Source: a virus. Taken from it: a DNA stretch of 64,000 bases. The notes beneath the pieces were generated by a model. The model was not told the origin of the DNA and made no database searches. It saw only the letters and a list, made by a program, of their open reading frames with translations. The DNA is taken from positions 39,947 through 103,946 of IMG/VR virus record IMGVR_UViG_3300032116_021241; one strand, 5' to 3'. Shown one piece after another: positions 1 through 18,186 of the stretch. A program made the translations under genes and the position numbers. The first letter of the stretch is position 1; the number at the start of each line of letters is the position of its first letter.

Positions 1-342
1 TATGTTATCTGGAAAAACACATGTAGATAAAAAACAAACTAAATTTTTTATGCCAAATTTTCTACTCGATTCTATAACATTTGTATTTATCATTATATTG
101 TCATAGAAAAATTCTCCTTTTAAATTCATATTACTTCCTAATCCACCAACTTTTGCAGCACAATGTATAACTTTATCTACAGCAAATTCGTTTTGTATTT
201 TTGAGTCAGTATAAAATTCAAATATTTGCTCTGTACTTTTTTTATCTCTCAAATCACAAACCTTAGAAGATAATGCAATTAAATCTCCTTTAAATTGAGA
301 TCCAACTAAACCACTTTGACCAGTTACTAATAACCTTCCCAT
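1..342 (-). CDS. fcl: GDP-L-fucose synthase-like SDR (partial, N-terminal 114 residues)
   Basis: The gene starts at an ATG at 342 and runs off the left edge of the window, so only the N-terminal 114 residues are visible. Residues 2-12 (GRLLVTGQSGL) form the glycine-rich NAD(P)-binding turn of an extended short-chain dehydrogenase. HCAAKVGG near residue 70 and LSTCVFP near residue 110 match the signatures of GDP-L-fucose synthase (GDP-4-keto-6-deoxymannose epimerase/reductase), whose catalytic region reads SSCIYP. Known enzymes turn the product of GDP-mannose 4,6-dehydratase into GDP-L-fucose, and that dehydratase is encoded at 995-1969. It is the most downstream visible gene of the minus-strand glycan operon. 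The catalytic YxxxK lies outside the window, so activity cannot be judged. Confidence 0.82.
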   Translation of the reverse strand, partial: MGRLLVTGQSGLVGSQFKGDLIALSSKVCDLRDKKSTEQIFEFYTDSKIQNEFAVDKVIHCAAKVGGLGSNMNLKGEFFYDNIMINTNVIESSRKFGIKNLVCFLSTCVFPDNI

Positions 343-348
343 AATTAT

Positions 349-993
349 TTAATTAAAGTTTTTTTTCCAATTATTATCAAATAATTCTTTTTCTTCGTAA
401 GTATTGAATCTAAATGGACTTTTATTATTGAAAAATAATACGTGGTTTTTTATTTCTTGAACTTTTGTAAAACCAAAACTTTCAAGGTAATCAAAATTAG
501 TCCACTCGTCATTTATTTTATGTATTTCTATGACCATACAATGTATGTAAACATCATCAAAATTTATTCCTTCTAACACTTCTTTCTCATAACCTTCAAC
601 ATCAAGGCTAAAAAAATGTATTTCATTTATATTATGTTTCTTGAGTAAGAAATCTAAAGTTTTACAAGGAAACTTAGTAGGAGACCAATTAGATTTATTA
701 TGAATGTTTATTATGCCACCAGTCATAAAATCATCAAAATCACCTTCTATGAAATCTTCTTTATGATTTTTACTAACTAAAACATAATTTTCTAAAATTG
801 TTTTAGGTCTAAAATCTCTATATGTAGAATTCCAATAATCTTTTGGTTCTACAACTAAACCAGACCAACCATTTTCTTCTAAAAAAGTAGTATTACATTG
901 ATCATAAGGATTAGATCCACCAGCTTCAAAAAATATTTTTTCTTTGCCAAAAATATTATATATTATTTTATCAATCTGATTTTGAGAAGACAT
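349..993 (-). CDS. FkbM-family SAM-dependent methyltransferase
   Basis: A 214-residue class I methyltransferase of the FkbM type. FFEAGGSNPYDQCNT (about residues 21-35) is the SAM-binding motif I, normally VDVGAN-like in this family. GLVVEPK (about 45-51) is the acidic end of strand 2, and FSLDVEGYEKEVLEG (about 128-142) is the highly conserved FkbM LDVEG(A/Y)E motif. Members methylate hydroxyls of sugars or small molecules. It lies 6 bases upstream of the fucose synthase-like gene and 1 base downstream of the GDP-mannose dehydratase, so it belongs to the same transcription unit and most likely O-methylates a sugar of the encoded glycan. The substrate cannot be read from sequence. Confidence 0.85.
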   Translation of the reverse strand: MSSQNQIDKIIYNIFGKEKIFFEAGGSNPYDQCNTTFLEENGWSGLVVEPKDYWNSTYRDFRPKTILENYVLVSKNHKEDFIEGDFDDFMTGGIINIHNKSNWSPTKFPCKTLDFLLKKHNINEIHFFSLDVEGYEKEVLEGINFDDVYIHCMVIEIHKINDEWTNFDYLESFGFTKVQEIKNHVLFFNNKSPFRFNTYEEKELFDNNWKKNFN

Positions 994-994
994 A

Positions 995-1969: not shown

Positions 1970-1977
1970 TTATTTAA

Positions 1978-3111
1978 TTATTTATTTATTTTTTTATTGA
2001 TCCAATCAAAAGTTTTTTCTAGTCCTTTTGTCAATGGTTCAGAAACTTTCCATCCAATTTTTTCAAAGAATAGAGTATTATCAGATTTTCTACCTCTCAC
2101 GCCTTGAGGGCATTTATGACCATATTTTTTTAAAAATTCATCACCCCAAATATTATTTATGTTTATTTTTTTTCCAGAAATTTTAATTACTATTTCTGCC
2201 ATTTCATTTATAGTGATCATTTCTTCTGAACCTATATTGACAGGTCCTATAAATTCTGAATTCATAAATTTTTCTATTGCTTCTAAACATTCATCAATAT
2301 ACAAAAATGATCTTGTTTGTAATCCATCACCCCAAATTTCGATACTACCACCATTTTGAGTTTCTGCAACCTTCCTACAAATTGCTGCAGGGGCTTTTTC
2401 TTTGCCATTATTATATGAACCAAACGGGCCAAAAATATTGTGAAATCTTGCTATTCTGACATTTAATCCATAGTTTCTATTGAAGGCTAGATATAATCTT
2501 TCACTAAATAATTTTTCCCAACCATATTCACTATCTGGGTTGGCTGGATATGCTGAATCTTCTACACAATTCGGATTTTCAGGATCATTTTGATTGTGCT
2601 CTGGATACATACAAGCAGATGAAGAATAAAAAATTTTCTTAACTTTTTTTACAACACACTCGTGGGATACATTTAAATTTATTATTGCTGAATTAAGCAT
2701 CACGTTGGCATCATTTTCTCCTGTAAAAATGTATCCAGCACCACCCATATCAGCCGCTAATTGATATAATTCATCTGTGTTTTCTAAAATTGACTTCTTT
2801 ACTATTTCTGGATTTGTCAAATCTCCGACTATGAAATCATCTGCATGAGTATTTTCATATTCAGGATATTTGATATCAACAGCTCTAACCCAGAAACCTT
2901 TATTTTTTAATTTTTTAACTAAATGGCTACCAATGAAACCGCCTCCCCCAAGTACAATTGCAATTTTTTTATTTTCTGGACTTTGAAAAGAAGTATTTCC
3001 TACAAATCTTTTTTCATTTGTATCTAAACATTTTTGAAAAAATGTAACCTCATCATCTGTAATATAGATTGAGTTTTTGAATGTGTAATTTTCGAAATCG
3101 TAATATTTCAT
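1978..3111 (-). CDS. GDP-mannose 3,5-epimerase-like NAD-dependent epimerase
   Basis: A 377-residue extended SDR with a roughly 45-residue N-terminal extension before the Rossmann turn IVLGGGGFIGSHL. It carries the segments that set GDP-mannose 3,5-epimerase (GME) apart: LAADMGGAGYI, YSSSACMYPE with the catalytic Cys used in epimerisation, EYGWEKLFSE with YxxxK, RFHNIFGPFG, KEKAPAAICRK, WGDGLQTRSF and VNIGSEEM. Plant GME makes GDP-L-galactose for ascorbate synthesis and also GDP-L-gulose; bacterial relatives supply surface-sugar precursors. The product here could be either sugar. It lies 8 bases upstream of gmd and would compete with it for GDP-mannose. A 64-base gap precedes it. Confidence 0.85.
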   Translation of the reverse strand: MKYYDFENYTFKNSIYITDDEVTFFQKCLDTNEKRFVGNTSFQSPENKKIAIVLGGGGFIGSHLVKKLKNKGFWVRAVDIKYPEYENTHADDFIVGDLTNPEIVKKSILENTDELYQLAADMGGAGYIFTGENDANVMLNSAIINLNVSHECVVKKVKKIFYSSSACMYPEHNQNDPENPNCVEDSAYPANPDSEYGWEKLFSERLYLAFNRNYGLNVRIARFHNIFGPFGSYNNGKEKAPAAICRKVAETQNGGSIEIWGDGLQTRSFLYIDECLEAIEKFMNSEFIGPVNIGSEEMITINEMAEIVIKISGKKININNIWGDEFLKKYGHKCPQGVRGRKSDNTLFFEKIGWKVSEPLTKGLEKTFDWINKKINK

Positions 3112-3175
3112 ATAATTTATTTTGTCTTTAATGAAATAAAAATAAAATAAAATATAGGAAATAAAATATTAAAGA

Positions 3176-3931
3176 TCAGTTTATTTTACAAACTGGTATT
3201 GGTATCATTTTATGTAAATTCTTAGAATTTAAAAAATTATATATATTAATTATCTCCAATTGTCTTTCTGAATATTTTAATGGATCAATTGTATTGCTTT
3301 TACTTAATAATTCCATAGCCCACTCTAATTCTTCGTATGAAGCACCAATTTGTTGTTCATCTGTTCTGTCATCTGACCATAATCCATCTGTAGGAGCAGC
3401 TTCAATGATTTCTGAAATTATACCTAAATTTGATGCCATTTTTCTTACTTCAGTTTTAGTCAAATCTGCTATTGGGGAAATATCAACTCCACCATCACCA
3501 TATTTTGTAAAGAATCCAATTCCAAAATCTTCTATTTTGTTGCCAGTTCCAACCACAATTCCATTAACACTTGTTGCTATTTGATAAAGAGTAATCATTC
3601 TTAACCTTGAACGAGTGTTTGCAAAAGCTAGATTGTTATTATATTCATTTGCAAATTTTTTTAAAAAAACATCATATATGTTAGTCAAATCATATTCTTT
3701 TTCAACAACATTGTTGTATTTATTTTTTAACCAATTAATATGCTTTCTTGCTCTTGTCAATTCAAGTTCATTTTGATAAATTGGCATTGAAACTAATATG
3801 GTTTCAATTTCAGTCATAGCACAAAGAGTTGAAACTAAAGCGGAGTCTATACCCCCAGAAACACCAACAACTAACTTAAATTTTTTTTCACTACAATAAT
3901 TCTTAATCCAATCTACTATTTTTCTCTTCAT
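3176..3931 (-). CDS. nadE: NH3-dependent NAD(+) synthetase
   Basis: A 251-residue N-type ATP pyrophosphatase. VVGVSGGIDSALVS (about residues 21-34) is the PP-loop, and GTGNKIEDFGIGFFTKYGDGG (split by the family into GT-NK-E and FTKYGDGG), ISPIADLTKTEVR and APTDGLWSDDRTDEQQIG follow in NadE order. No glutaminase domain is present, so it would use free ammonia to amidate deamido-NAD to NAD. It overlaps the upstream gene by ATGA at 3931-3928. The placement inside a sugar cluster is unusual. It may support the NAD(P)-dependent dehydratase, epimerase and dehydrogenase encoded here, or offset NAD-depleting host defences. A sugar-amidating role for a NadE-like fold cannot be excluded. Confidence 0.88.
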   Translation of the reverse strand: MKRKIVDWIKNYCSEKKFKLVVGVSGGIDSALVSTLCAMTEIETILVSMPIYQNELELTRARKHINWLKNKYNNVVEKEYDLTNIYDVFLKKFANEYNNNLAFANTRSRLRMITLYQIATSVNGIVVGTGNKIEDFGIGFFTKYGDGGVDISPIADLTKTEVRKMASNLGIISEIIEAAPTDGLWSDDRTDEQQIGASYEELEWAMELLSKSNTIDPLKYSERQLEIINIYNFLNSKNLHKMIPIPVCKIN

Positions 3932-5034
3932 GTGTGTAAAAATTTGTCTATGAATACATTTATTTTTTCGAAATTATCTGAATTGAAATTATATGATATT
4001 GATTTTTTATTTTTTAATTCACAAACTTTTGAAACAAAAGTATTTTTATTTTGTTTGTCATCGAGTAAAACTAAATTTGTATTACAATAATATGATGCTA
4101 GATCGATTGGTGAAGTTGATGGGCTTATAAAAATTTCAGAATTATGAACCACACTCAAAAATTTTTTTACATCGAAAAAATTTCTCATATCATATTCTAT
4201 GATATAATCGTTTTCTGGAATTGGATATTTTACTAAATCGTTTATAATCACTAAAAATTTCTTTTCTGAAATAAATTTGTTCACAAGTTTATTATAGAAA
4301 TCTAAATCTACAAAACCAAAACCCGGATTTCCTTTTGTTCCATCTCCAACTAAAATTTCATTTATATTGGATGATCTAAAATTTCTACTTTTCCAAGTAT
4401 TTTTTACAAATAAAGTACAATATTTCTTATCTAATTTTAAAACATCTTCAAATTCGTAATTATTTTTCCACAAATCTAAATTCCAACCTAAAGTTCCACT
4501 AGTTTTCCAAGCAGTATTTTCCGATGTATAATAATCTCTTTCCCCCGAAGCATATTTATATGATTGTAGACTAAATAAGTTGTATTTCCAAGGCAAATCT
4601 CTTCCTATAGCATGAATTTTATTCTTAAATTTATATTTTGATAGAATTAAATCATAATCATCCTCATTAAAATTTCTTATCGTATACCAAAAAGCAATAC
4701 CTCTATCTCCTTGGTTCTGAAAATTATTAATTAATAAATCGGTTTCTTTATTATTTTTATAAGCTTTATTTGTATCAATAAAACCTTCTAATATAATCAA
4801 TTCATCTACCCAAGGTTCATAAAAAATTTCTTGACCCTCAAAACAAATTCCAACTGTTGGCCCATTGATATTTTTGAAAAAATCTAAAAACAATTCATTG
4901 AAAAAAATAGGATAAAAACCATATTCACACCAAAAATAATTTATCAAATTATATTGTTCCGTATTTCCAATTGAACTTAAATAAAGATCTAAATCTTTTA
5001 AATTGTTTATTTTTACTTTTTTAATTTTTTGCAT
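3928..5034 (-). CDS. Putative GT-B-like glycosyltransferase
   Basis: No confident family match, 368 residues. The C-terminal third contains SEIFISPSTSPIDLASYYCN (about residues 305-324), which resembles the nucleotide-sugar-binding loop of heptosyltransferase-like GT-B enzymes (typically GPDTGPxHLA), followed by a strand reading NLVLLDD. An N-terminal strand reads PTVGICFEG. Length and neighbourhood fit a glycosyltransferase. A longer reading from position 5046 would begin at TTG; the ATG at 5034 (fifth codon of that reading) is preferred. It overlaps the end of the upstream FkbM-like gene by 14 bases, and its TGA overlaps the ATG of nadE. Function is inferred mainly from context. Confidence 0.5.
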   Translation of the reverse strand: MQKIKKVKINNLKDLDLYLSSIGNTEQYNLINYFWCEYGFYPIFFNELFLDFFKNINGPTVGICFEGQEIFYEPWVDELIILEGFIDTNKAYKNNKETDLLINNFQNQGDRGIAFWYTIRNFNEDDYDLILSKYKFKNKIHAIGRDLPWKYNLFSLQSYKYASGERDYYTSENTAWKTSGTLGWNLDLWKNNYEFEDVLKLDKKYCTLFVKNTWKSRNFRSSNINEILVGDGTKGNPGFGFVDLDFYNKLVNKFISEKKFLVIINDLVKYPIPENDYIIEYDMRNFFDVKKFLSVVHNSEIFISPSTSPIDLASYYCNTNLVLLDDKQNKNTFVSKVCELKNKKSISYNFNSDNFEKINVFIDKFLHT

Positions 5035-5752
5035 TATTGATTTCAATTATATCTTCTATATCATTTATTTCTAACATTTCTCTACTATCATTAGATGCCC
5101 ATTTCATAAACCAAGGATATTGATTTGTTGAAACTATGGGTAAATTATTAAATTCTTTTGAAATAAAAAACATATTTACTCCATTTATTCCTACTAAATC
5201 ATAGTTCTTAAATTTACCTAAAAGTTCTAGTGCTGGAGGAGTAGCACCGTAATAAATAGTATTGTGATGAACATAATTTTTATCATATGGCATGATGCAA
5301 CTTTTTTGAATATTGCTATTATATTCGATTACTACAATTTTAGGTCTATATTTATTTAAGCTATTCCATATCCACCAATCATTACCGTCTATGTCAATAG
5401 AGATTAAATCAAAATTTATAGGACAGTTATTTTGTTCTAAAAGATAATCTATACAATTATCTTCTTCAATTGATATAAAAGAATTTAGACATTTAACATT
5501 AAATGATGACATATTATTTGTTAATTGATCAAATTTATTTTTATCAGCTTCTATACAGATACCTGAAAAATTTTTATCTTTAATTAAATGATAAACGTTA
5601 CTTAAATAAATTCCATCCCAACTTCCTACATCTACGAAGTATCCATTTTCATTTATATTTAAGGACTCGAGACATTCTTTAATCATTCCGTCTTCTCCAT
5701 ATTGAGAATAATAATTTTCTTGGTACTTATTTAAACCGTAATTTTTTGACAT
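5021..5752 (-). CDS. FkbM-like methyltransferase
   Basis: A 243-residue protein beginning with YYSQYGEDGMIKECL, a segment common at the start of FkbM-type methyltransferases (SQxGED). NGYFVDVGSWDGIYLSN (about residues 36-52) is motif I, SGICIEADK is the acidic strand-2 end, and FDLISIDIDGNDWWIWN (about 124-140) is a variant of the LDVEGxE motif in which Glu is replaced (IDGND). It probably transfers a methyl group to a sugar in the glycan made by this operon. The IDGND variant marks a distinct subgroup also seen in capsule clusters. The 3' end overlaps the next gene by 14 bases, which suggests coupled translation. Confidence 0.75.
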   Translation of the reverse strand: MSKNYGLNKYQENYYSQYGEDGMIKECLESLNINENGYFVDVGSWDGIYLSNVYHLIKDKNFSGICIEADKNKFDQLTNNMSSFNVKCLNSFISIEEDNCIDYLLEQNNCPINFDLISIDIDGNDWWIWNSLNKYRPKIVVIEYNSNIQKSCIMPYDKNYVHHNTIYYGATPPALELLGKFKNYDLVGINGVNMFFISKEFNNLPIVSTNQYPWFMKWASNDSREMLEINDIEDIIEINNAKN

Positions 5753-5761
5753 AATTTTAAT

Positions 5762-6433
5762 TTATAGAATTGAATAATTAATATTGTTTTCTTTTTTAAT
5801 CAAGTAATCTTCCTTTATATCTAATTCTTCAAAAGAGTTTTTTGGTAAAACATAAATTTTTCCAACACCACCTATACTACCATCCCTAATTGGTAATTTT
5901 CTGTTAGTGGAATTAAGATAATAATATAGATATCCATTATCATCATAACAAGTATTTAATTCTTTTTCAATAAAAGAAAAATCACATTTTACGTTATGAT
6001 ATGAATCATATTGAAAATTTCTATTAGGTACGAAAAAATCATCAATTACTATAATTGCTCTGTTTTTGAAAGATTTAGATATTGCAATTAATTCGTCTTG
6101 TAATGGCCAATAATTTTCCCAGTGTGCATCCAAATAAAACATCACAAAATTATAGTCATTTTCAATTTTTGGTAAAATTTCAGAAAGAAATTTTTCTGAG
6201 GAATCTTTGTATATTTCAACATTTTTTAAATGATTACATTTTTGATTTGACAATTGGAAAAAATGATCTGTAATTTCTACACTTAAAACTTTTTCAAAAT
6301 TTTCGCCTAAAAATTTTGTTGTATTACCCTCATATGAACCTGTTTCTATTACACATTTTATGTCAAATAGATTCTTTAATTTTAATATTTCCTCACAAAC
6401 TTTTGTGTCTGAGTTGAAAGCTGTTGTTTCCAT
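5762..6433 (-). CDS. Class I SAM-dependent methyltransferase-like protein
   Basis: 223 residues when started from the ATG at 6433. A longer reading from 6481 would need a GTG and would overlap the upstream dehydrogenase gene by 29 bases, so the shorter start with its A-rich leader is preferred. VIETGSYEGNTTKFL is a SAM-binding motif I, VLSVEITD is the acidic strand-2 end, and FMFYLDAHWENYW followed by IVIDDFFVP looks like the metal-binding core of TylF/MycF-type O-methyltransferases. The acceptor is unknown. It lies between a second methyltransferase and the nucleotide-sugar dehydrogenase, consistent with glycan modification. It is not closely related to the FkbM proteins of the operon. Confidence 0.65.
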   Translation of the reverse strand: METTAFNSDTKVCEEILKLKNLFDIKCVIETGSYEGNTTKFLGENFEKVLSVEITDHFFQLSNQKCNHLKNVEIYKDSSEKFLSEILPKIENDYNFVMFYLDAHWENYWPLQDELIAISKSFKNRAIIVIDDFFVPNRNFQYDSYHNVKCDFSFIEKELNTCYDDNGYLYYYLNSTNRKLPIRDGSIGGVGKIYVLPKNSFEELDIKEDYLIKKENNINYSIL

Positions 6434-6452
6434 ATTTATTATTTTAATTTGT

Positions 6453-7550
6453 TTAATTAGATGTATATTCGAATAAATCACCGTAAATTTTTTTGACTTG
6501 AGTTATTACTTCTATTTTATCTTTTATTACTATTTTTAAACCTTTTTTTGCCAATTCTACAGCGAATTTTAGTTGTTGAGATTCTTCGATTATAATAGAA
6601 TCTTTTTTATAACTAACACCATCAATTTCTATAGTTTGTTTTTCATTTTTTCTAATAAAATCTTCTATTTGATAATTTAAATGAATGTTGTTATATTGAT
6701 CTGATGCTTTTGGTATTAAAGGATCAATGTTTATTTCTTCAGCAAAAATTCCCAATGCTCTATTATCTCTTGGAAAACAAGGGCCACCAAACCCATAACC
6801 CCATTTCAGATATTTATTATTTATTCTCGAATCACAACCGATAGCATTGAGAACATTAAAATGAGAAATTTCTAATTTGTTACAAATATCGCCTATCATA
6901 TTGGCAAAAGATATTTTTGTAGTTACAAAACAATTAATTGAAATTTTCGTTATTTCAGCTTCTGTTCTTGACATTTTACAAAAAACAGGTTGATTTTCTA
7001 CTAAATTTTTATATACATTTTCAATCAGATTTCCAGATATTTCATCTGCTTGTCCTATTAAAACCATGTCTGGATATAATTGGTCCTTTATAATGCTACC
7101 CTGTGCTATGAATTCAGGATTATAAGATATTTTGTAATTATAAGAATCTAATTCTTCTTGGATTTTATCACAATAAGTTGGCATAGTAGTGCAACAAATT
7201 ACTAAATCTTTTCTTTTTTGTTGTTTTCCTATTTTTTTTAATTTACTCACTAAAATATCTATTTGTTCGTGATTGTATTTTCCGTTAGGAAGAGAGGGTG
7301 TTGCAACTACTACAAATATTATATCATTTTCTAATGCTAACTCTAGATTGTTAGATGCATATAAATTTTCACATCTACTTAATAATAATTCAACATCTTT
7401 TTCAAGAGATTTCAATGTTTTATAATTTATAGAATTTATATAATTTTCATCAATGTCAATTCCTGTAATTTGAAAACCTTTTTTTTCTAGATTAAGAGCA
7501 AAACACAAGCCTAATTTTCCTAATCCTATAACACTTATTTTTTTATTCAT
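6453..7550 (-). CDS. UDP-glucose / GDP-mannose 6-dehydrogenase family protein
   Basis: 365 residues. ISVIGLGKLGLCFALNL (residues 5-21) is the NAD-binding turn. The family motifs FVVVATPSLP, CCTTMPTY, YNPEFIAQGSI and AEITKISINCFVTTKISFAN follow, and the catalytic cysteine lies in GYGFGGPCFPRDN (about residues 250-262). The enzyme oxidises C6 of a nucleotide sugar to a uronic acid with two NAD. Full-length members have about 400-450 residues, so the C-terminal nucleotide-binding domain is shortened. It ends with FEYTSN at the expected end of that domain, with no sign of a frameshift. The substrate (UDP-glucose, UDP-HexNAc or GDP-mannose) cannot be assigned. Confidence 0.9.
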   Translation of the reverse strand: MNKKISVIGLGKLGLCFALNLEKKGFQITGIDIDENYINSINYKTLKSLEKDVELLLSRCENLYASNNLELALENDIIFVVVATPSLPNGKYNHEQIDILVSKLKKIGKQQKRKDLVICCTTMPTYCDKIQEELDSYNYKISYNPEFIAQGSIIKDQLYPDMVLIGQADEISGNLIENVYKNLVENQPVFCKMSRTEAEITKISINCFVTTKISFANMIGDICNKLEISHFNVLNAIGCDSRINNKYLKWGYGFGGPCFPRDNRALGIFAEEINIDPLIPKASDQYNNIHLNYQIEDFIRKNEKQTIEIDGVSYKKDSIIIEESQQLKFAVELAKKGLKIVIKDKIEVITQVKKIYGDLFEYTSN

Positions 7551-7579
7551 ATGTTGTAATGTTGATTTTATTAAATTTA

Positions 7580-8443: not shown

Positions 8444-8445
8444 AT

Positions 8446-9261: not shown

Positions 9262-9267
9262 GCCAAT

Positions 9268-9891
9268 TTATTTTTTTTTATTTTTTGCAATCAAAAAACC
9301 ATTCCTATCATTTTCATCTTCTGCAATTATTTCATAATCAATATTGTTTTTCATAATTTTTGCAACTTCAATATTTTTCATCAAATTAGTATCGTCTAAA
9401 ATAAAATATTTAGATCTAGATTCCAATTTTTTAAATTCTGCAAAACTGCTAAATTCACCACCATCTAAAATTAAAACATCAATTTTATTAGGTAATTTGT
9501 CAATGATATTAGGTATTTTTTTATAATTTAAAATATCTTCTTTAAGCCATTTTTCTAAATGAAATCTAGCAATTTTATTAAAATATTCTGATCCAAGAGA
9601 ATCTTCATTTAATAATTCATTTAATTCAATTATTCTGCCTAACAATAAATTGAAATTATCAATTTTAGGAATATTTAATACAGCTTGATTGTACATGTCT
9701 TCATTAGATTCTATAGAGAAAACTTCATAATTTTCTTTAGATGAATCTATTATTGCATCATAAATACATTTTGTTGTCCCCAATCCATTCCAAGTGCCAA
9801 TGTCAACTATGATTTTATTTTCATCAAGTTTGCAAATATTATATATTAATTCTCCTAATTTGCTACCTCTGTTAATTTGGCCTAATTGCAT
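9268..9891 (-). CDS. Class I SAM-dependent methyltransferase-like protein
   Basis: 207 residues. KIIVDIGTWNGLGTTKCI (about residues 24-41) is motif I of a class I methyltransferase, and VFSIESNEDMYNQA (about 57-70) is the acidic strand-2 end with a tyrosine helix. IDVLILDGGEFSSFAEF (about 132-148) and YFILDDTNLMKN follow, which resembles the D-G-x(n)-DD metal site of TylF-like O-methyltransferases. It probably methylates a sugar hydroxyl. It starts at ATG 9891, 41 bases downstream of a family 2 glycosyltransferase gene. No key region is missing. Confidence 0.65.
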   Translation of the reverse strand: MQLGQINRGSKLGELIYNICKLDENKIIVDIGTWNGLGTTKCIYDAIIDSSKENYEVFSIESNEDMYNQAVLNIPKIDNFNLLLGRIIELNELLNEDSLGSEYFNKIARFHLEKWLKEDILNYKKIPNIIDKLPNKIDVLILDGGEFSSFAEFKKLESRSKYFILDDTNLMKNIEVAKIMKNNIDYEIIAEDENDRNGFLIAKNKKK

Positions 9892-9932
9892 ATATTATAA
9901 AATTTTTTTTGTAATATTAATTAATTAAACAA

Positions 9933-10754
9933 TTATAGTAAATATTTGTCTTGTATAATTTTAGGATGTTCTCCTATAAATTTTATATTGTGACAACCAA
10001 ATGGTTTATAATTTTTATCTTTATCAAATTTGTTCCATTCCTCTAAACATTTTTCGTTTTTATAAAAAGAAGCTTTGAATTTAACTTGATTTAATTCTAC
10101 GTAACTATAATGATATAATTTGATTCCTAATGCGAGTGTTTGGTCTCTAGTAAGTACTTTTCCTGTATTGCATACTGTATTATCACATACATAGTTAGGT
10201 GGTTCATGCGATATCCAATATGATTTACCCGGTACATTTCTGAATATTCTCATCCATGGTATTTGATTTGCCCATTTACTGTCAGTTTCATTTATACAAT
10301 AATCATAACCGCCAAAAAAATGATTTGCATAAAAATGCACAGCATCAATTTTCTTTTTCTCTAATATTAATAATAAAGACTCTATGTCTTCATGATGATA
10401 AAATTCATCTGAATCTAATTGCCAAATATAATCTCCGGTTGCAATTTTTGCATATTCATTACACATTTGAGTTTTACCATCCCAAAACCCTTTGGATTCA
10501 ATTAGTTTTATTTTATTTTGAGGATCAGGAAAAGATTTTATAATATCTAAAGTTCCATCATTTGATTTTCCATCATTTGTGAATTTACTTGTATCCCCAT
10601 CAAAATAATGATTTACTGCTTTTGTAGCTCCCTCTACTATTATAATTTCGTGTGCAAAGTCATAAATATTTTTAATGCAATTGTATAACATACCGTCTGG
10701 TAAGTTTTTTTCTGCATTAAAAACTATCATTCCAAAAGTAATTTTTATGCTCAT
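9933..10754 (-). CDS. Glycosyltransferase family 2-like
   Basis: 273 residues with a GT-A fold. TFGMIVFNAEKNLPDGM (residues 5-21) is the first nucleotide-binding strand, EIIIVEGAT the second, and SNDGTLDIIKSF the family 2 S-x-DGT-x-DI motif. GDYIWQLDSDEFYHHED (about residues 107-123) supplies the DxD metal site. WMRIFRN and the late histidine-rich KLYHYSYV complete the domain. It probably adds a hexose to a growing oligosaccharide in the cytoplasm, since no membrane segment is visible. The start ATG overlaps the stop of the upstream gene (ATGA). Confidence 0.82.
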   Translation of the reverse strand: MSIKITFGMIVFNAEKNLPDGMLYNCIKNIYDFAHEIIIVEGATKAVNHYFDGDTSKFTNDGKSNDGTLDIIKSFPDPQNKIKLIESKGFWDGKTQMCNEYAKIATGDYIWQLDSDEFYHHEDIESLLLILEKKKIDAVHFYANHFFGGYDYCINETDSKWANQIPWMRIFRNVPGKSYWISHEPPNYVCDNTVCNTGKVLTRDQTLALGIKLYHYSYVELNQVKFKASFYKNEKCLEEWNKFDKDKNYKPFGCHNIKFIGEHPKIIQDKYLL

Positions 10755-11536
10755 AATTTTGATTCTATATCTTCTATTGTATAGTTTAATAATTCTTTAT
10801 ATGTAAACAAACATTTATCACTTTTAAGATAATATTCATTGTTTTTTTCATATTCATTGAATCTGTCAAAATTTTCTGTTATATAATTATCATATCTTAA
10901 ATTAAAGTGATGATACAAATCTTTTATAAAATCATTGACAAAAATCATTCTGCCAGAACCTATGAGTTGATGCTTTTCCGCTATTAAAGAAGTTTTTACA
11001 ACTAATTTAGGATGTATTATATCTCTATAAAAATATGTGTTTCCTATTTGTGTTGGTTGTTTATTGATAATTGAATTAAATATTTTACCAAATAAAAAAT
11101 TTTCATTTCTATAAATCGAGTTGAAATTAAATGGAAACATTATTAAAACATTTCTATAAATTTCATTATTTTTTAAAATATAGTCAGTGATTTTAAATTT
11201 AGATGATAGATAACTAGTATTAAAGAATTTTATTTCTTTTTTCAAGTCTACGGGTCCTGAATATTGGTTCCATAATTCACATGTTGAATAAATTATTACT
11301 TTATTTGCCCTATCTTTAAAAAAATCTATAATTTTTAAAGTTAAAAAAAAATTAATGTCATCATATGTATTTTTATCTTCTAAAAACTTTCTTGATTCCC
11401 CAAAACATAAAAAAACTTTATCATAATTTTCATTTAAAGAATTGTAATTTATATTTCTAGATGAAATAAAATCGAAGTTTTCTTTTGGAAAATAATGTGA
11501 TAATTGTGAAGTATTGCCAATAACTAAATTTCTCAT
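10751..11536 (-). CDS. Degenerate SDR / sugar epimerase-like protein
   Basis: 261 residues that look like an extended short-chain dehydrogenase with eroded motifs. The N-terminus NLVIGNTSQLSHYF lacks the usual GxxGxxG (only GNTSQL remains). VIIYSTCELW keeps the catalytic Ser/Thr strand and TSYLSSKFKITDY keeps a YxxxK. The domain is short compared with the roughly 320 residues of sugar epimerases. It may bind a nucleotide sugar without normal NAD use, or be a reductase with an unusual cofactor pocket. The order Rossmann strand, S/T-C, YxxxK, HP-L is still recognisable. It is embedded between two glycosyltransferase-like genes with coupled starts. Confidence 0.55.
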   Translation of the reverse strand: MRNLVIGNTSQLSHYFPKENFDFISSRNINYNSLNENYDKVFLCFGESRKFLEDKNTYDDINFFLTLKIIDFFKDRANKVIIYSTCELWNQYSGPVDLKKEIKFFNTSYLSSKFKITDYILKNNEIYRNVLIMFPFNFNSIYRNENFLFGKIFNSIINKQPTQIGNTYFYRDIIHPKLVVKTSLIAEKHQLIGSGRMIFVNDFIKDLYHHFNLRYDNYITENFDRFNEYEKNNEYYLKSDKCLFTYKELLNYTIEDIESKL

Positions 11537-11540
11537 ACTC

Positions 11541-12608
11541 TTATTTATTGGATAATCTATTTAATAGATCTTTCCATTTATCTAAAATAAGATTTTTTCT
11601 TTTTAAATTAAACTCTTCCATTTTATTACTGATTGAATCAAGATCTGTATTTTTTATTTTATATTTTAAATCGTCAAATGAATCAAAATAAGTTATGTAT
11701 GGCATCCATTCTTGATTATAAAAATCAGACAACTCGATCCATCTTCTAATATTTTCAGTATTATTATAGTCATTTGGATCATCATTTTTTTTGTTATTAA
11801 ACAAAATGGATCCGGAAGGCAAATTGAATACTTGATTCCAAGTTAATTCAGATAAAACACCATTGTTTTTATGTTCTTTAAACAGCTCTAACATAAAATT
11901 TATGCTAGGTACAAATAATGGTATATTTGCAGTATAATGTTCAAATATTGACATTATAGAACAGTTATATGGTATCAGAACTATTCCTTTAAAGTTTGCT
12001 AAATCTTGCCAATCATATTTGCCTAAAAGTTTTTTATTAAAAAATTCAGAACCCAAATTTATATCTAATTTGCTCGAATAGAGGAATTTTTTATTTATGG
12101 GATCGTATTTGCTTTTAGTGTATTCACAAATATTTGGTATATAATTACAATCTTTTTCGACAAAATATTCAAAATATTTTTTATCATATAAAGAATTAGA
12201 TACTGGAAAAATAATATTTTTATCTATATTTTTTCTTAGAAAGTTATTAAACTTAATCCAATTGTTTTGATTATTGTGAAAAGGAACTTCATATCTTATT
12301 GGAATTTGTATTATGATAGGTTTTTCAAATTTTTCAAATAACATTGAAAAAGATGGTGGATATGTCAATACAAAACCATCATATTCACTTAATTCTTCTT
12401 TGTAAGTATTATAAAAATCATCTGCTAATTTTTGATCCAAATTCCACCAATTATTTGAGTTAATAACTTCTATTTGATCGGGGTTTTTACCGAAAATCCA
12501 GTTGTGTCCAGAAATTGATTTACTATCAATTGAGTGTCCTAAATCTTCAAATATTTTTTTTAAATCTGCTATAACAGATATGTGGCAGTCTAAATTGAAA
12601 AATTTCAT
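11541..12608 (-). CDS. Putative glycosyltransferase, GT-B-like, unknown family
   Basis: 355 residues without a confident family match. It opens with FFNLDCHISVIADLKKIFED, a strand-helix unit with a histidine as in GT-B N-domains. In the middle it has YDGFVLTYPPSFSML and KPIIIQIPIRYE. The C-terminal half has FKGIVLIPYNCSIMSIFEHY (about residues 229-248), where the E-H-Y after a Ser-rich turn resembles the donor-binding E of GT4-like proteins, followed by NIPLFVPS. Context in a glycan operon, with both ends overlapping or abutting neighbours, supports a transferase. It could equally be a glycan-binding or regulatory protein. Confidence 0.5.
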   Translation of the reverse strand: MKFFNLDCHISVIADLKKIFEDLGHSIDSKSISGHNWIFGKNPDQIEVINSNNWWNLDQKLADDFYNTYKEELSEYDGFVLTYPPSFSMLFEKFEKPIIIQIPIRYEVPFHNNQNNWIKFNNFLRKNIDKNIIFPVSNSLYDKKYFEYFVEKDCNYIPNICEYTKSKYDPINKKFLYSSKLDINLGSEFFNKKLLGKYDWQDLANFKGIVLIPYNCSIMSIFEHYTANIPLFVPSINFMLELFKEHKNNGVLSELTWNQVFNLPSGSILFNNKKNDDPNDYNNTENIRRWIELSDFYNQEWMPYITYFDSFDDLKYKIKNTDLDSISNKMEEFNLKRKNLILDKWKDLLNRLSNK

Positions 12609-13294
12609 AATTGATTTGTTTGTTTTAAATAATTCTTTAGCAATTCAGTGTGTTCGGGTACATTGTTGTTTTTTTCATCAAATACTTCTCCAACAAATTC
12701 TAATTCTTTCCTTGGTGTAGGAAAAGGAAGATTGCATGGAAAATTAAATATTTCATCGTGACATATATGACTTTTAAAATATTTTCTATATAAATCAGTC
12801 AAAAAAATTTGATCATCCATGTACTTGAAATCTGGTTTTATTTCTAAGAATTTAATTATTGCATCCTTCATATTAAAATCAAATGAGTTCAATAATCCCC
12901 ATGTTCCTCCTAAAATTTGAATTCCATGACTTGGATGATCTCTCATTATATGTAATTTTTTATCTGTTTCTATCCATTCGTCTACAGCATATTTTTCTCT
13001 GAAGTTTAGTCTTGAATCAGTGTCTCTAACAATAAATCTTTCAACACTTTTATCATCATATACTAGAAATCTCCAAAACATTCCATGATTGTCCATTCCT
13101 GAATTTGTCATATCTACAAGTTCAATCTTTAAATCTCTTAACTCGTCAATATATTTTTCTGGAACTGAATTGTCATAATATATTCGACAGATCCAATCTG
13201 GATATATAAGTGGTTGCAATTTGACATTTTCGATTGCCCCAATACAATATTTCGGATTTTCTCCGTACAAACTGAAACTTATAATTTTTTTCAT
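12605..13294 (-). CDS. GT-A-type glycosyltransferase with DTD motif
   Basis: 229 residues from the ATG at 13294, which follows the upstream stop codon by one base; a longer reading from 13312 would need GTG. ISFSLYGENPKYCIGAIENV is the first strand and helix, WICRIYYD the second strand. ERFIVRDTDSRLNFREK (about residues 87-103) carries the DxD motif (DTD) with the RxxD-S-R pattern seen in capsule transferases. The next segment, MRDHPSHGIQILGGTWGL, contains the H and GG turn found in the same group. It is probably a hexosyltransferase in the encoded pathway. Its 3' end overlaps the next gene by ATGA. Confidence 0.7.
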   Translation of the reverse strand: MKKIISFSLYGENPKYCIGAIENVKLQPLIYPDWICRIYYDNSVPEKYIDELRDLKIELVDMTNSGMDNHGMFWRFLVYDDKSVERFIVRDTDSRLNFREKYAVDEWIETDKKLHIMRDHPSHGIQILGGTWGLLNSFDFNMKDAIIKFLEIKPDFKYMDDQIFLTDLYRKYFKSHICHDEIFNFPCNLPFPTPRKELEFVGEVFDEKNNNVPEHTELLKNYLKQTNQL

Positions 13295-13295
13295 T

Positions 13296-14120
13296 TTACC
13301 AATAGCAGCCACCCTCTACCATTTTAAATTTTTCTGGAATTTCTATATCAAAAGGTCTTCTCCAATGTTCATTATAGAATTTATTGATATTTTTATTTTC
13401 GTCCCATCTTTTTCCTTTTATTCCAAATAATATTTGAGTCGCACCACCAACATAAATTCCAGATTTTTTCATTTCATTTTTTATGAAATTTAATAATGGT
13501 AGCCCATATGAACCACAACCAAGTAAGGCTATATCGAAATTTAATTCTGAAATTTCTTTCTTCATTATTTCGAGAGATTCTTTCCAGCTTGAATGAGGCC
13601 CTTCAGCACCAACAGATTGTACTGAAGTATAATTTATAAGATTAAATTTAGGTAACATTTTTCCATCTGGCCAAATTTTTTCTCTTTTTTTATATTGATA
13701 TCTTATTGATTGACTAAATGGATTTATAATTAATACATTCTTACCTTCTAGTTCTTGACTCCATGGATCATCAAAGTAATAAGGCTCAACTATTTTGAAT
13801 CCTACTTTTGTTGAATTAGGAGAAAGTTTTTCGAATATTTTATGTTGTATATTATCTATCATACTTCCATTCCATACCACTTGTAGATCTCCACAAGCTA
13901 TTCCCTTTGAGTATTCTTCGAAAAAATCTTCTATTTTACCCCCATAAAATCCTGCTTGAATTGAAAGATAATATAATTGTTCATCTGTCACTTTTAAACC
14001 AGATAAAATTTGATTAGTCACAATTGTTTCAAAACCTGTTGCTATTCTCGAAACTGCAAAAAGTTTATTGTTCTTAATATTTTGTTTAATTATTTCGTTC
14101 CCTTCTATTTCAGTTATCAT
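13296..14120 (-). CDS. GT-D-like / polysaccharide-synthesis protein
   Basis: 274 residues from ATG 14120; an earlier in-frame codon at 14126 is TTG. RIATGFETIV (about residues 25-34) and the CGDLQVVW segment (about 75-82) with its acidic GD are followed by KNVLIINPFSQSI and FDIALLGCGSYGLPLLNFI (about 196-214). GIYVGGATQILFGIKGKRW (about 222-240) comes after that. These last two segments are highly characteristic of a capsule-associated family with GT-D-like features (DUF1792-related folds). Enzymatic activity is not proven from sequence. It lies within the operon, 1 base upstream of a GT-A gene. Confidence 0.55.
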   Translation of the reverse strand: MITEIEGNEIIKQNIKNNKLFAVSRIATGFETIVTNQILSGLKVTDEQLYYLSIQAGFYGGKIEDFFEEYSKGIACGDLQVVWNGSMIDNIQHKIFEKLSPNSTKVGFKIVEPYYFDDPWSQELEGKNVLIINPFSQSIRYQYKKREKIWPDGKMLPKFNLINYTSVQSVGAEGPHSSWKESLEIMKKEISELNFDIALLGCGSYGLPLLNFIKNEMKKSGIYVGGATQILFGIKGKRWDENKNINKFYNEHWRRPFDIEIPEKFKMVEGGCYW

Positions 14121-14122
14121 GA

Positions 14123-14746
14123 TCAAATTATTTTTTTATTAATACAAAAGCATTGATATGGTTTTTGACTATCGTAACTTACTTTTTTCATATTTTCTAA
14201 ATCAATACAAGTTAATTCATATTTTTTTATAATTAAATCTTTTATAATGTCCCAATCTTGTTGTAAATGACATTCAACCAAGATATATTTTGTTTTATAG
14301 ATTATTTTTTCTAATCCCTCAAGAACAAATTTTTCTGCTCCTTCAACATCAATTTTAATTAGTTTAATAGATTCTTCATTCGAAAAAAAAGTATCGAGCC
14401 TTATTGATTCAACTTTTCCAGCTATTGGGTTTTCTACAAAATTCATGTCATGTCCAATTATATTATTTGTCCACGCATCTTTGCCTTTATAATAATTTAT
14501 GATAGAATTTTCATTAGACACTGCTTTATTGTGTATGATTACATTTTGATTATTTTCAAATCTATTCAATAAAACTTTTGTTGTATCAGGGTCTAATTCA
14601 AAAGAATAAATTTTTCCTGTATTTTCTAGATTTTTCAAAAAAAATTCAGTGTAATCTCCATAATTAGCACCTACATCAATTATAATATCACCTTTTTCGA
14701 TGAATGATTTTAGAAATTCAAAATTTCTTATGTCGTTGTGGTCCAT
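14123..14746 (-). CDS. FkbM-family methyltransferase
   Basis: 207 residues, the clearest FkbM protein in the operon. GDIIIDVGANYGDYTEFFLK (about residues 18-37) is motif I, IYSFELDPDTTKVLL the strand-2 motif with the acidic end, and IRLDTFFSNEESIKLIKIDVEGAEKFVLEGL (positions about 120-150) holds the family hallmark IDVEGAE. The length is typical for a single FkbM domain. It is expected to O-methylate a sugar residue. The start overlaps the end of the upstream glycosyltransferase gene by 19 bases. No signal peptide is seen, so it acts in the cytoplasm. Confidence 0.9.
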   Translation of the reverse strand: MDHNDIRNFEFLKSFIEKGDIIIDVGANYGDYTEFFLKNLENTGKIYSFELDPDTTKVLLNRFENNQNVIIHNKAVSNENSIINYYKGKDAWTNNIIGHDMNFVENPIAGKVESIRLDTFFSNEESIKLIKIDVEGAEKFVLEGLEKIIYKTKYILVECHLQQDWDIIKDLIIKKYELTCIDLENMKKVSYDSQKPYQCFCINKKII

Positions 14747-15408
14747 TGTATAAAAAAATTTTCTTTTTTTCTTTTTTCGTAATTTAATTTATCAATATTG
14801 TTAAATGAATCATTTTTAATTTGTAGTGGATCCCATATTTCGCCTAACCAAACTGGATGTTCGTGCTTAATAATAACATGAGGTATATATTTTACTTTTT
14901 TCAGAATTTTGGATATATCTGTAAATTCAGTATCACACCAAAGAGATATATAGGTTGGGTTGTAGATGTAATTAAATCTTTTATAATATTTTTTCCCTAA
15001 AATACAAAGTGTATTAAGATTGTTTCCTTGATATCCGTCATTGAACCAAAGAACACCGTCAGTATCTGGAAAAAACTTGTTAAAGCTTTGTCTAATTATT
15101 GTATCATATCCTTTTTCTTGAGGTATCATATCATCTGAAGCTAGTAGAATAATGTCATAATCCTCATCATTCATATCAGCATTAATAGCTTCAACTTTAT
15201 TTTTGTTATTCCCAAAGAAAAATTCTAAATTTTTATACTCTTTAAATTTATTAATAACATTGTCACAATTCATGGATAAATCATCAGAATCACAACTTAT
15301 TATGAAACGGGTTTTTGACAATTCATCTAGCAATTCATAATATTTATCTAAAACTGAAAAAAACTTATCCGGTCTTGATCTTGTTGGAAATTTAATTAAT
15401 AAATTCAT
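14728..15408 (-). CDS. Glycosyltransferase family 2-like (GT-A)
   Basis: 226 residues. LLIKFPTRSRPDKFFSVLD (residues 3-21) is a GT2-like first strand with the T-R-x-R-P turn, and FIISCDSDD the second strand. NKVEAINADM matches the NxAxNxxM donor segment. YDIILLASDDMIPQEKG (about residues 82-98) supplies the metal-binding ASDDM motif. VLWFNDGYQG and the late HEHPVW segment resemble family 2 enzymes acting on capsule or phage glycans. The start ATG lies 17 bases inside the upstream gene, so translation is probably coupled. Confidence 0.75.
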   Translation of the reverse strand: MNLLIKFPTRSRPDKFFSVLDKYYELLDELSKTRFIISCDSDDLSMNCDNVINKFKEYKNLEFFFGNNKNKVEAINADMNDEDYDIILLASDDMIPQEKGYDTIIRQSFNKFFPDTDGVLWFNDGYQGNNLNTLCILGKKYYKRFNYIYNPTYISLWCDTEFTDISKILKKVKYIPHVIIKHEHPVWLGEIWDPLQIKNDSFNNIDKLNYEKRKKENFFIQWTTTT

Positions 15409-16096
15409 TAGTTATTTTTGATTCTATAATAAATTTAGTTCTGTCTATTTTTAGACTATTATAATCAAAATTAATAATTTCTTCCTTATTTTCAAAAATA
15501 ACTTCTATTATTTTATTTTTATTGAAACATGACATGATATTTTTAGGATAATTATCAAAGATTTGTAAGTTATTCTCCAGTTCTAGTGGGTTTTCAAAAT
15601 TTATATTTTTTATAAATTTTAATAATTCTTTGCCTCTATATACTGTTCCGTCTAAATTTAATGGATAACCAAAATCCATATAGTGAACCGACCAATCCCA
15701 GTATAATAAATTGTTTTTTTCTTCTATAGGTTTAAAAATATTGTCACAATTCATATTTGAACAAAAAGTAATATTTTTCCCTAAGGATAAACTAAAACAA
15801 AAAACTTCATCATTTTTTAGACAATTATCAATTTCCTCTATACGAAATTCATCGTAACATAGTTTATTTTCATCAAGGATCATATAATTGATACTTGTAT
15901 TTTCATTAATTTCTGAAATTAAATCATTCTTTAAATTATTGGTTTTTATTATTTTACATCCCAATATTTCAGTATATAATTTATTGTTTTGATCAAAAAT
16001 TACAATTTGATTATCACCAATCGCTTTTTGATTTAAACTTTTAATTAGAATGTTTAAATTCTCTTTATTTTTATTAAAAAAAATTATAGTTTTCAT
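15392..16096 (-). CDS. Glycosyltransferase-like protein (GT-A remnant)
   Basis: 234 residues. The protein starts with a strand TIIFFNKNKENLNILIKSL that resembles a GT-A N-terminus. It continues with INYMILDENKLCYDEFRIEE (about residues 89-108), where LDENK may stand for the DxD site, and VFCFSLSLGKNI. LLYWDWSVHYMDFGYPLNLDGTVYRGKEL resembles the acceptor-side segment of transferases in this type of cluster (YPLxxDGxxYR). The motifs are weak and the usual two-strand donor site is not obvious, so it may be a degenerate or regulatory transferase. It is coupled to the upstream gene by ATGA. Confidence 0.5.
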   Translation of the reverse strand: MKTIIFFNKNKENLNILIKSLNQKAIGDNQIVIFDQNNKLYTEILGCKIIKTNNLKNDLISEINENTSINYMILDENKLCYDEFRIEEIDNCLKNDEVFCFSLSLGKNITFCSNMNCDNIFKPIEEKNNLLYWDWSVHYMDFGYPLNLDGTVYRGKELLKFIKNINFENPLELENNLQIFDNYPKNIMSCFNKNKIIEVIFENKEEIINFDYNSLKIDRTKFIIESKITNEFIN

Positions 16097-16923
16097 GCTT
16101 TTAATTGTTTTTTATTTTGAATTATTTCTAAAGTATCATAATAAAGATCGGAATTAATTTTTTCCGAATTTAAAGGATTGTCAATATTATAAAAATACAT
16201 TACATCGCTTATGTGAAATGTTTTTTCAAATCCTGCCAAATCAGCCAAAGGATAAAATAATGCATAGTTAGAACAGGTTGAAAACCATTCACCTTTATCA
16301 TCAGTAAAATATTCGAATTTCGGGTCTAATTGACAAAATTTATCATAAAGTGATTTTCTAAAAGTAATTGGATGGGAAAATTTAGGTGTTATTCTTCTTA
16401 ATATAGGAAATTCTTTTTCTTGATAAGTGGTAGAATAGCATTTTTTACCATCTGTCAATTTAGAAGATCCATAAGTCATCAAACAATCTTTTTCATTATA
16501 GATTTCATTTATTTTTTTTAGAACGTTTTTATTTGATAACCAGTCGTCACCATATAAAATAAAAATAATATCATCAGGATCCGTCGAAGCATTTATAATA
16601 GCATTGTGAATATTCGGTAGAGCAGTAAGTCTTCTACTTGATTTCCAAGCATTTACCTTTAAACATTTGGTTATTTCTAGTATGGGATGAATTTCGGTGA
16701 TTATTAATTCTCCTTTTTCATCCCTGACAGGTTCATTTTTATCATCTGTCTGGTAAATACAAGCAGGTATTTTATTATAGCTATCGTCATTTGAAAAATC
16801 GTCTATAAATAAAACTTCATAATTATCATAATCTTGAGTCAGTACTGAATTAACACACATGTCAAAATAATCTCCGGGATTATGCAAGGGAATGATGACC
16901 TTAATTTTGTTATTTTTTATCAT
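16093..16923 (-). CDS. Glycosyltransferase family 2, first gene of the glycan operon
   Basis: 276 residues. IKVIIPLHNPGDYFDMCVNS (residues 7-26) and YEVLFIDDFSNDDSYN (about 33-48) are the two nucleotide-binding strands of family 2. DDIIFILYGDDWLSNKNVL (about 115-133) contains the DD metal motif, and FSHPITFRKSLYDKF the acceptor-loop segment. Between the second strand and the metal site is an insert of about 40 residues rich in charged residues. It is the promoter-proximal gene of the 17-kb minus-strand run; upstream lies only an 80-base divergent region shared with the plus-strand gene at 17004. Donor and acceptor are unknown. Confidence 0.85.
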   Translation of the reverse strand: MIKNNKIKVIIPLHNPGDYFDMCVNSVLTQDYDNYEVLFIDDFSNDDSYNKIPACIYQTDDKNEPVRDEKGELIITEIHPILEITKCLKVNAWKSSRRLTALPNIHNAIINASTDPDDIIFILYGDDWLSNKNVLKKINEIYNEKDCLMTYGSSKLTDGKKCYSTTYQEKEFPILRRITPKFSHPITFRKSLYDKFCQLDPKFEYFTDDKGEWFSTCSNYALFYPLADLAGFEKTFHISDVMYFYNIDNPLNSEKINSDLYYDTLEIIQNKKQLKA

Positions 16924-17003
16924 GCATTAAAATTATAAGCAAACTTTTTAATTGAAATAATTGATTTTAAAAAAATTGTAATATTTATAAGAAAATATTT
17001 AAC
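16924..17003. promoter_or_regulatory. Divergent promoter region
   Basis: An 80-base AT-rich gap between the first gene of the minus-strand glycan operon and the plus-strand gene at 17004. It must drive at least the 17-kb operon. On the plus side a TATTTATAA element lies about 15 bases before the ATG. On the minus side AGTTTGC resembles part of a Bacteroidota -7 element, but the leading TA is missing. No convincing -33 is visible. Confidence 0.4.
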
Positions 17004-17357: not shown

Positions 17358-17410
17358 TTTTTTCACATATTTAATATTATATACACAAATTAATAAAAAA
17401 TTCAAATAAA

Positions 17411-18055: not shown

Positions 18056-18091
18056 ATTACCACTACCAAATCAATATATATAATTTGAATT

Positions 18092-18120
18092 AGCCCGAAG
18101 AAATTCGGGCTTTTTCTTTT
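18092..18120 (+). terminator. Rho-independent terminator after the acidic-protein gene
   Basis: A 7-bp GC-rich stem, gcccgaa at 18093-18099 pairing with ttcgggc at 18104-18110 around a 4-base loop, is followed by tttttctttt. It ends the plus-strand unit 17004-18055. Confidence 0.85.
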
Positions 18121-18140
18121 AATAATTTTTTATAAATAAA

Positions 18141-18165
18141 AAAACCCGAAAAAAATTCGGGTTTT
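18141..18165 (-). terminator. Rho-independent terminator for the zinc-ribbon gene
   Basis: A perfect 10-bp stem (aaaacccgaa 18141-18150 with ttcgggtttt 18156-18165, 5-base loop) has a run of A on its left side, which is a U-tract when read on the minus strand. It ends the minus-strand unit that finishes at 18187. Its core cccgaa matches the neighbouring plus-strand terminator. Confidence 0.8.
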
Positions 18166-18186
18166 GAAATATTTTATATAATTCAA

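Follow-up and report, generated by a model that had tools for sequence, protein, structure and literature searches.

The closest described counterparts of the locus reported here come from a cyanophage and a chlorovirus. Cyanophage S-SCSM1, a T4-like phage of Synechococcus and Prochlorococcus, encodes GDP-mannose 4,6-dehydratase (GMD), GDP-L-fucose synthase and GDP-mannose 3,5-epimerase (GME) as ORF121-123, together with several fucosyltransferases and glycosyltransferases; the accessible part of its description mentions neither NAD synthetase (NadE) nor UDP-glucose/GDP-mannose 6-dehydrogenase (UGD) (PMC9602691). Chlorovirus PBCV-1 likewise encodes GMD and fucose synthase, and according to the available text of a report on chloroviruses these enzymes supply sugars for the glycan of a structural protein, the capsid protein, which is glycosylated without the transferases of the host endoplasmic reticulum (ER), the viral transferases having no ER signal peptide (PMC7019647). 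The locus in question lies in a 64,000-nucleotide stretch of viral DNA (positions 39,947 to 103,946 of record IMGVR_UViG_3300032116_021241; hereafter the window), whose first 16,923 bases hold a glycan operon of 21 minus-strand genes: these include the same GDP-sugar enzymes, joined by NadE (gene 5) and UGD (gene 9; genes are numbered from the window's first base). PBCV-1 is a eukaryotic virus whose acceptor is proven; that of the present system is a prediction.

NadE and UGD are neighbors in other phages as well. In Synechococcus phages S-SSM7 and Sf-FS3, Prochlorococcus phage P-TIM68 and Pelagibacter phage HTVC008M, the four isolates inspected, UGD is in every case the gene directly after NadE, amid glycosyltransferase or methyltransferase genes, and GME is present in the fetched stretch of three; these phages differ from the window in gene order and transferase set, and in the window NadE and UGD stand 2.5 kb apart with genes 6-8 between them. 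More closely alike are two near-identical records, IMGVR_UViG_3300042924_004294 (locus L091) and 3300020549_000501 (L092), in which UGD, genes 8, 7 and 6, NadE, GME, GMD and fucose synthase follow in the same order as in the window at 49-72% identity; they differ by extra genes between NadE and GME and by having no match to gene 2. The NadE-UGD pair, which the sequence-only reading of this DNA had missed along with NadE itself, is a strong linkage across many phages and the part of the operon most worth following: at stake is whether phages possess a new amide ligase or supply a cofactor in connection with glycan synthesis. Glycan clusters of phages usually go under the label of lipopolysaccharide genes with no test of the product, and the operon also offers, in a phage that probably infects Bacteroidota, a testable route leading from GDP-mannose through GDP-fucose to a fucosyltransferase.

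Linkage of NadE and UGD

Gene 5 (3176-3931, minus strand, as are all genes of the operon) belongs to the NadE family as judged by PF02540 (1.8e-50), phrog_11189 and TIGR00552 (175 bits; cut-off 63.65). By profile matches, gene 9 (6453-7550) can be assigned firmly, at the family level, as a UGD-type enzyme: it matches PF03721, PF00984 and phrog_9148, with the N-terminal and central UGD domains over their cut-offs, and TIGR03026 scores 220.6 bits against a cut-off of 189.8; its C-terminal domain is short and matches PF03720 weakly (16 bits; cut-off 30).

We scanned the best 80 of at least 557 viral relatives of gene 5, which form 57 groups at 90% identity. UGD lies within the fetched flank (at most 6 kb) in 43 of these groups, on the same strand as NadE in all 43, and abuts NadE (within 60 bp) in 28, downstream in 15 and upstream in 13; the next commonest abutting family occurs in 7 of the 57 groups, so that UGD is four times as frequent. 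The patterns used for fetching loci favor close relatives, and the counts describe the gene 5 NadE family only. Several of the 14 groups that show no UGD have short flanks (L252, L267, L221), and L252 falls among cellular sequences in a tree and may not be viral. The tie is also apparent in 80 loci selected on GME alone: eight contain NadE and 19 contain UGD, every one of the eight has UGD as well, and in seven of them the two genes abut. At 90% identity these loci form 63 groups, of which 8 have NadE, 17 have UGD and 8 have both (hypergeometric probability 6e-6, uncorrected for shared ancestry).

No UGD was found near any of the 80 best cellular relatives of gene 5 by tblastn and the same UGD profile, nor any other operon gene by tblastn, in flanks of 8 kb that were complete at 65 of the loci and shorter at 15; lower-ranked relatives fall outside this sample. 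In phages NadE also occurs in fusions. L202 and L239 encode NadE fused to a related N-terminal domain, which in L239 matches a PDB protein named AO75L/Exostosin GT47 (E 1.1e-13), presumably chlorovirus A075L and hence a further likeness to PBCV-1; the L225 protein joins NadE to a GT2 domain that barely exceeds its cut-off (25.7 bits; cut-off 23.3). A fusion in L214 was dropped as a third case, since its additional domain, which follows NadE, has no recognized family, and two glycosyltransferase-type fusions are counted. A quick tree with weak support groups 44 of the 57 phage NadE and sets the other 13 within or next to cellular sequences, which suggests few exchanges.

A search of Creative Commons-licensed papers in PubMed Central found no link of NadE with UGD or with glycans in phages. 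In the accessible parts of two papers, cyanophage NAD synthetase is listed as an auxiliary gene together with photosynthetic electron transport (PMC7238727, PMC10452541); unlike this listing, the neighborhood places the gene 5 family with sugar oxidation. The "NAD synthetase" open reading frames (ORFs) of about 145 residues in S-SSM7 and P-TIM68 are annotations separate from gene 5-type NadE, and published counts may therefore mix two kinds.

Possible roles of phage NadE

Residues and genomic context point in different directions, and we rank NAD synthesis first on the former and an amide ligase second on the latter. In alignments of phage and cellular NadE, 45 columns are invariant among 103 sequences and 35 among 137; a loss of invariant NAD-synthetase residues in the phage proteins was looked for in both alignments and was not found. 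Together with a TIGR00552 score far over its cut-off, this suggests that gene 5 may be a true NAD synthetase, kept beside UGD to meet the demand of UGD and the other sugar enzymes for NAD+ during infection, a reading to which we assign the largest share of probability among the NadE roles considered, somewhat short of an even chance. The cellular relatives look like single-copy housekeeping genes, consistent with such a role: in the order of Croceivirga lutea (Flavobacteriales) a search at 1e-20 gave one NadE match in 140 of 148 genomes, two in one and none in seven, and among the 16 genomes that yielded cellular relatives NadE passed the cut-off once in 15 and twice in one. No cellular NadE within a sugar cluster came to light in the 80 best relatives, and second copies were not common in Flavobacteriales either (1 of 148 genomes). 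On the other hand, UGD reduces NAD+ without using it up, and the precursor pool sets a ceiling on the NAD that NadE alone could provide; the choice of UGD in particular would go unexplained, as would the fusions to GT47-like and GT2 domains. Furthermore, cellular sequences conserve 98 columns at 90% or more; six of these (33, 60, 65, 244, 248 and 250) are kept by fewer than 60% of the UGD-linked or the UGD-free phage NadE, and three of them (244, 248 and 250) lie in the C-terminal tail past the invariant H240-K241; in the smaller alignment columns 33, 107 and 223 also differ.

The context would be accounted for if phage NadE had been taken over as an amide ligase, converting the UGD-made uronic acid, as nucleotide sugar or within a glycan, into a uronamide, an idea that we regard as tentative and clearly less probable than NAD synthesis. 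The chemistry fits, since UGD yields a carboxylate and the NadE family, according to the accessible part of one paper, adenylates and then amidates one (PMC3376133); the excess of UGD over every other abutting family, in both orders and on one strand, the transferase fusions and the lack of UGD beside the best cellular relatives all argue in the same direction. So do two of the shifted columns: P244 is kept in 18 of 43 UGD-linked and 13 of 14 UGD-free phage sequences and in 73 of 80 cellular ones, and C248 in 5 of 43, 6 of 14 and 72 of 80 (Fisher tests of linked against free, 0.001 and 0.018, both uncorrected for the number of columns and for kinship). A precedent exists in Tannerella, whose O-glycan contains mannosaminuronamide and whose glycan cluster holds the asparagine-synthetase-like gene asnB and the dehydrogenase wecC, though the available text ties asnB to a different modification (PMC6120980). 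Against an amide ligase stand the retained invariant columns and the high family score, and the remaining shifted columns do not set UGD-linked sequences apart. Slightly more doubtful still is the general proposal that the NadE family was recruited in many marine and freshwater phages to amidate uronic acids with UGD, sometimes fused to a glycosyltransferase, giving uncharged uronamide sugars; if true, it would add a new reaction to the NAD synthetase family and reveal a chemical disguise common to unrelated phages. Phage counter-defense that restores NAD+ also exists, and as a member of the NAD synthetase family in a phage, gene 5 could in principle counter an NAD-depleting defense and lie in the operon by chance; the specific pairing with UGD in either order and the transferase fusions make this improbable.

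The glycan and its probable acceptor

The operon appears to encode a route to GDP-L-fucose, with GMD and fucose synthase both assigned by best match. Gene 3 (995-1969) is firmly identified as GMD by similarity, with PF16363 at 7.8e-113, GMDs in the PDB at about 1e-95, and TIGR01472 as best NCBIfam model at 384 bits, below its 415-bit cut-off. Gene 1 is likely the fucose synthase: the window contains its 5' part (1-342; PF01370), and the complete gene of 311 codons in the parent record has NF047922, GDP-L-fucose synthase, as its best NCBIfam model (1.5e-73), with 248 bits against a cut-off of 500, so that this claim of the sequence-only reading stands as a best match and falls short on score. 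Gene 4 (1978-3111), with about 45 extra N-terminal residues, is assigned with confidence to GME, its closest solved structures being GDP-mannose 3,5-epimerases (PDB search, 7e-84). The same reading's GMD, GME-like enzyme and nucleotide-sugar 6-dehydrogenase all agree with the Pfam, PDB and NCBIfam matches. Gene 14 (10751-11536) is probably a divergent nucleotide-sugar dehydratase or epimerase: no Pfam family exceeds its cut-off, and an iterative profile reaches GMD-like proteins and groups it with dehydratase/epimerase relatives.

Gene 10 (7580-8443) has no family match in Pfam, PHROG or NCBIfam searches. Its AlphaFold model, built from seven relatives (mean predicted local-distance difference test, pLDDT, 76), has the fold of GDP-fucose fucosyltransferases: all 49 Foldseek matches at E of 0.001 or below are NodZ, FUT8, POFUT1/2 or plant FUT1, and the 43 best VIA-align rows are all fucosyltransferases (Z 13.2-15.8; next row 9.0), with NodZ 3siw at Z 14.8 and a root-mean-square deviation of 3.2 A over 219 residues. 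A profile search points weakly to fucosyltransferases as well (E 0.003), R149 is invariant across the seven relatives, and activity with GDP-fucose is predicted from the model. With GMD and fucose synthase, this fold places the supply of GDP-fucose and a putative fucosyltransferase within a single operon; the GDP-fucose route already proposed for a phage-borne operon of nucleotide-sugar and glycosyltransferase genes thus holds and gains a matching transferase.

The operon is of a kind known from large marine phages, in which nucleotide-sugar enzymes and several glycosyltransferases stand together in a phage genome, and the earlier impression of an unusual combination has to be given up: the same set is in print for S-SCSM1, and viral contigs contain at least 600 stretches related to GME. 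GME relatives are also present in 231 of 50,697 phage records, 84 of them from Synechococcus phages and 61 from Escherichia phages; a single one reaches 60% identity, 71 cover 80% or more of the query, and the weaker matches may be other epimerases.

We propose that host GDP-mannose would be converted to GDP-L-fucose by genes 3 and 1, and probably to GDP-L-galactose or gulose by gene 4; that gene 9 would oxidize a host nucleoside-diphosphate (NDP) hexose to an NDP-uronic acid, with NadE as a working part of the pathway acting through UGD; and that soluble transferases, including the putative fucosyltransferase of gene 10, would assemble the sugars in the cytoplasm, where FkbM-type enzymes would methylate them. 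From this set of enzymes we infer the substrates, a single product (one methylated, fucose-containing oligosaccharide) and its acceptor, which would most likely be a phage structural protein, for instance one of the large fibers, as in chloroviruses. A cytoplasmic acceptor and assembly fit the 30 cluster proteins examined, which show no clear membrane helix (19-residue hydropathy maximum 1.63, with two borderline maxima of 1.63 and 1.62, by hydropathy only) and among which no flippase, polymerase or lipid-linked starter was seen. Taken whole, from phage glycan operon to the action of NadE through UGD, this explanation has in our estimate an even chance of being correct.

Several points weigh against it. 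The acceptor is no more than a candidate, suggested by likeness to chloroviruses. A fiber of 2342 residues with a weak collagen-like stretch (37411-44439, minus strand) has no relatives among named phages at E 1e-5 in which fiber and operon might be seen together. Genes 11 (8446-9261; one homolog, in L214), 15 (11541-12608) and 20 (15392-16096) find no family and no support as glycosyltransferases, the first two having no Pfam or PHROG match and the last two no relative in the searched loci. Host flippases, moreover, could be borrowed, which would make an envelope target compatible with the missing membrane genes. The operon might accordingly remodel the envelope glycans of the infected cell (lipopolysaccharide, capsule or a Bacteroidota O-glycan) through a host flippase and ligase, for example as a block to superinfection. 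In the accessible parts of the respective papers, clusters encoding these enzymes in cyanophages are described as lipopolysaccharide or cell-wall genes (PMC9602691) and the O-glycan of Tannerella, a member of the Bacteroidota, includes fucose along with methylated sugars and uronic acids (PMC6120980); a TonB-receptor-like protein with a plug domain in a second record of this phage (G001, below) also hints at surface changes. With no clear membrane protein among the 30, we give the envelope an appreciable but distinctly smaller probability than the structural protein. DNA comes last, a virion protein being the most likely target and the host envelope the next. Glycosylation of DNA exists in T4 and provides a precedent; no base-hydroxylating enzyme was recognized by eye in a cursory look at the ORF lists outside the window, the window past 18.5 kb being partly annotated, and an adenylosuccinate synthetase near phrog_1211 in G001 suggests another DNA change, which leaves a glycan on phage DNA very improbable.

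Operon layout, remaining genes and parent phage

The gene content and layout of the operon, and the families or folds of the enzymes named, are plain from the data. The ORF listing confirms the 21-gene minus-strand glycan operon that had been described, running from 16923 down to the window edge, with 16,753 of 16,923 bases coding and intergenic gaps of -29 to +64 bp. The ATGA overlaps reported for it are present at four of the 20 junctions and absent from the other 16, one of which has a TTGA overlap, so that five junctions overlap by 4 bp. The 20 bases 5' of the start codons are A-rich and, by eye, mostly have no clear Shine-Dalgarno motif. At 16924-17003 the strand switches across an 80-bp A+T-rich divergent intergenic region, which we presume to be the promoter region; a promoter scan of 15000-18500 gave no excess over shuffled sequence.

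Of five methyltransferases claimed earlier, genes 2 (349-993; PF05050 2.8e-13, TIGR01444 32 bits and below cut-off) and 18 (14123-14746; PF05050 1.9e-17, TIGR01444 88 bits) are FkbM-type enzymes over the Pfam cut-off. Gene 8 (5762-6481, true start perhaps nearer 6436) is a probable methyltransferase whose one family over cut-off is PF00398, rRNA adenine dimethylase (31 bits; cut-off 24), with a weak Methyltransf_24 match. The remaining two are weak: gene 7 (5021-5752) falls just below the PF05050 cut-off and joins FkbM relatives in an iterative profile, and gene 12 (9268-9891), with no Pfam family over cut-off, shares relatives with gene 8 by the same method and is probably a methyltransferase of its family. 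The estimate of about ten glycosyltransferases was too generous, and about half stand. Genes 13 (9933-10754; PF00535 5.4e-12) and 21 (16093-16923; PF00535 1.6e-9 over the first 44 profile positions), the latter the operon's first gene, are GT2 enzymes with scores above the cut-off, gene 19 (14728-15408) matches a phage glycosyltransferase family (phrog_14945, 4.2e-23), and gene 10 is included by fold. Support is weak for gene 17 (13296-14126), a possible GT-D-type transferase (PF22882 6e-4, below cut-off); for gene 16 (12605-13312), GT-A-like only by an RDxDS motif that an alignment shows to be conserved, whose relatives gave nothing convincing against the PDB; and for gene 6 (3928-5046), whose AlphaFold model (pLDDT 72) suggests a GT-B-like fold with only weak GT9/2-epimerase-like matches. 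Among loci selected through GME or NadE, which set the bounds of the search, homologs of gene 6 (L091, L259, L217 and copies) turned up only where NadE was present.

The window makes up the final 64 kb of a linear virus record of 103,946 bases (G000), in which minus-strand genes continue past the window edge, with glycan genes up to 6.6 kb beyond. A GalE/TviC-like epimerase gene overlaps the completed fucose synthase gene by 4 bp; further on come an exonuclease and other genes, then a gene with no family and a GT1-type transferase. A second glycan cluster at 4.9-14.5 kb of the parent contig comprises a GT2-GT9 fusion, a protein with no family, RmlD-like and PseB-like proteins, a methyltransferase and a GT1-FkbM fusion, and the earlier reader therefore saw part of a larger investment. 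A further GT1-type glycosyltransferase is encoded outside the operon at 21639-22901 (plus strand).

The sequence-only reading had allowed for an assembly error near 16923-17004 that fused a bacterial capsule locus with a phage genome; we reject this as having negligible probability. A viral record of 216,699 bases (G001) matches G000 at 100% identity over the 13,931 and 6,822 bases compared, and the junction stretch from the operon to the divergent genes is identical in both over 2,501 bases, though G001 may not come from an independent sample. Related modules occur in other viral contigs; in L214 about 3 kb separate the module from a PhoH gene that shares 56% identity with the window's. Base composition shows no break.

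We read the source virus as a T4-like contractile phage because of this PhoH gene, a terminase large subunit with an intein carrying a LAGLIDADG domain (34276-37017, minus strand), a portal protein carrying an inserted HNH endonuclease that may be a second intein (31073-34216, minus strand), and a baseplate wedge protein gene upstream of the window in the parent record. A Peptidase_G2 protein of the self-cleaving type (44511-46052, minus strand) adjoins the 2342-residue fiber. The host is probably a member of the Bacteroidota, as the Shine-Dalgarno-poor, A-rich start regions suggest together with the TonB-receptor-like protein of G001 (L273 251-3851), which has plug and CarboxypepD_reg domains and is unusual cargo for a phage. 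The neighbor of this protein in L273, with no Pfam family, starts like a lipoprotein by eye. The adenylosuccinate synthetase of G001 (L272 8643-9641; 332 residues) is closest to phrog_1211, "2-aminooxy adenylosuccinate synthetase"; we take it to be PurZ-like, which raises the question of 2-aminoadenine DNA. A tRNA-Arg predicted in L002 sits inside the ORF of a long collagen-like protein of GSSGTSG repeats (L002 1-2151) and was set aside as probably false. G001 also encodes an enzyme of the PEP synthase/PPDK type (L274 11957-14356; 799 residues).

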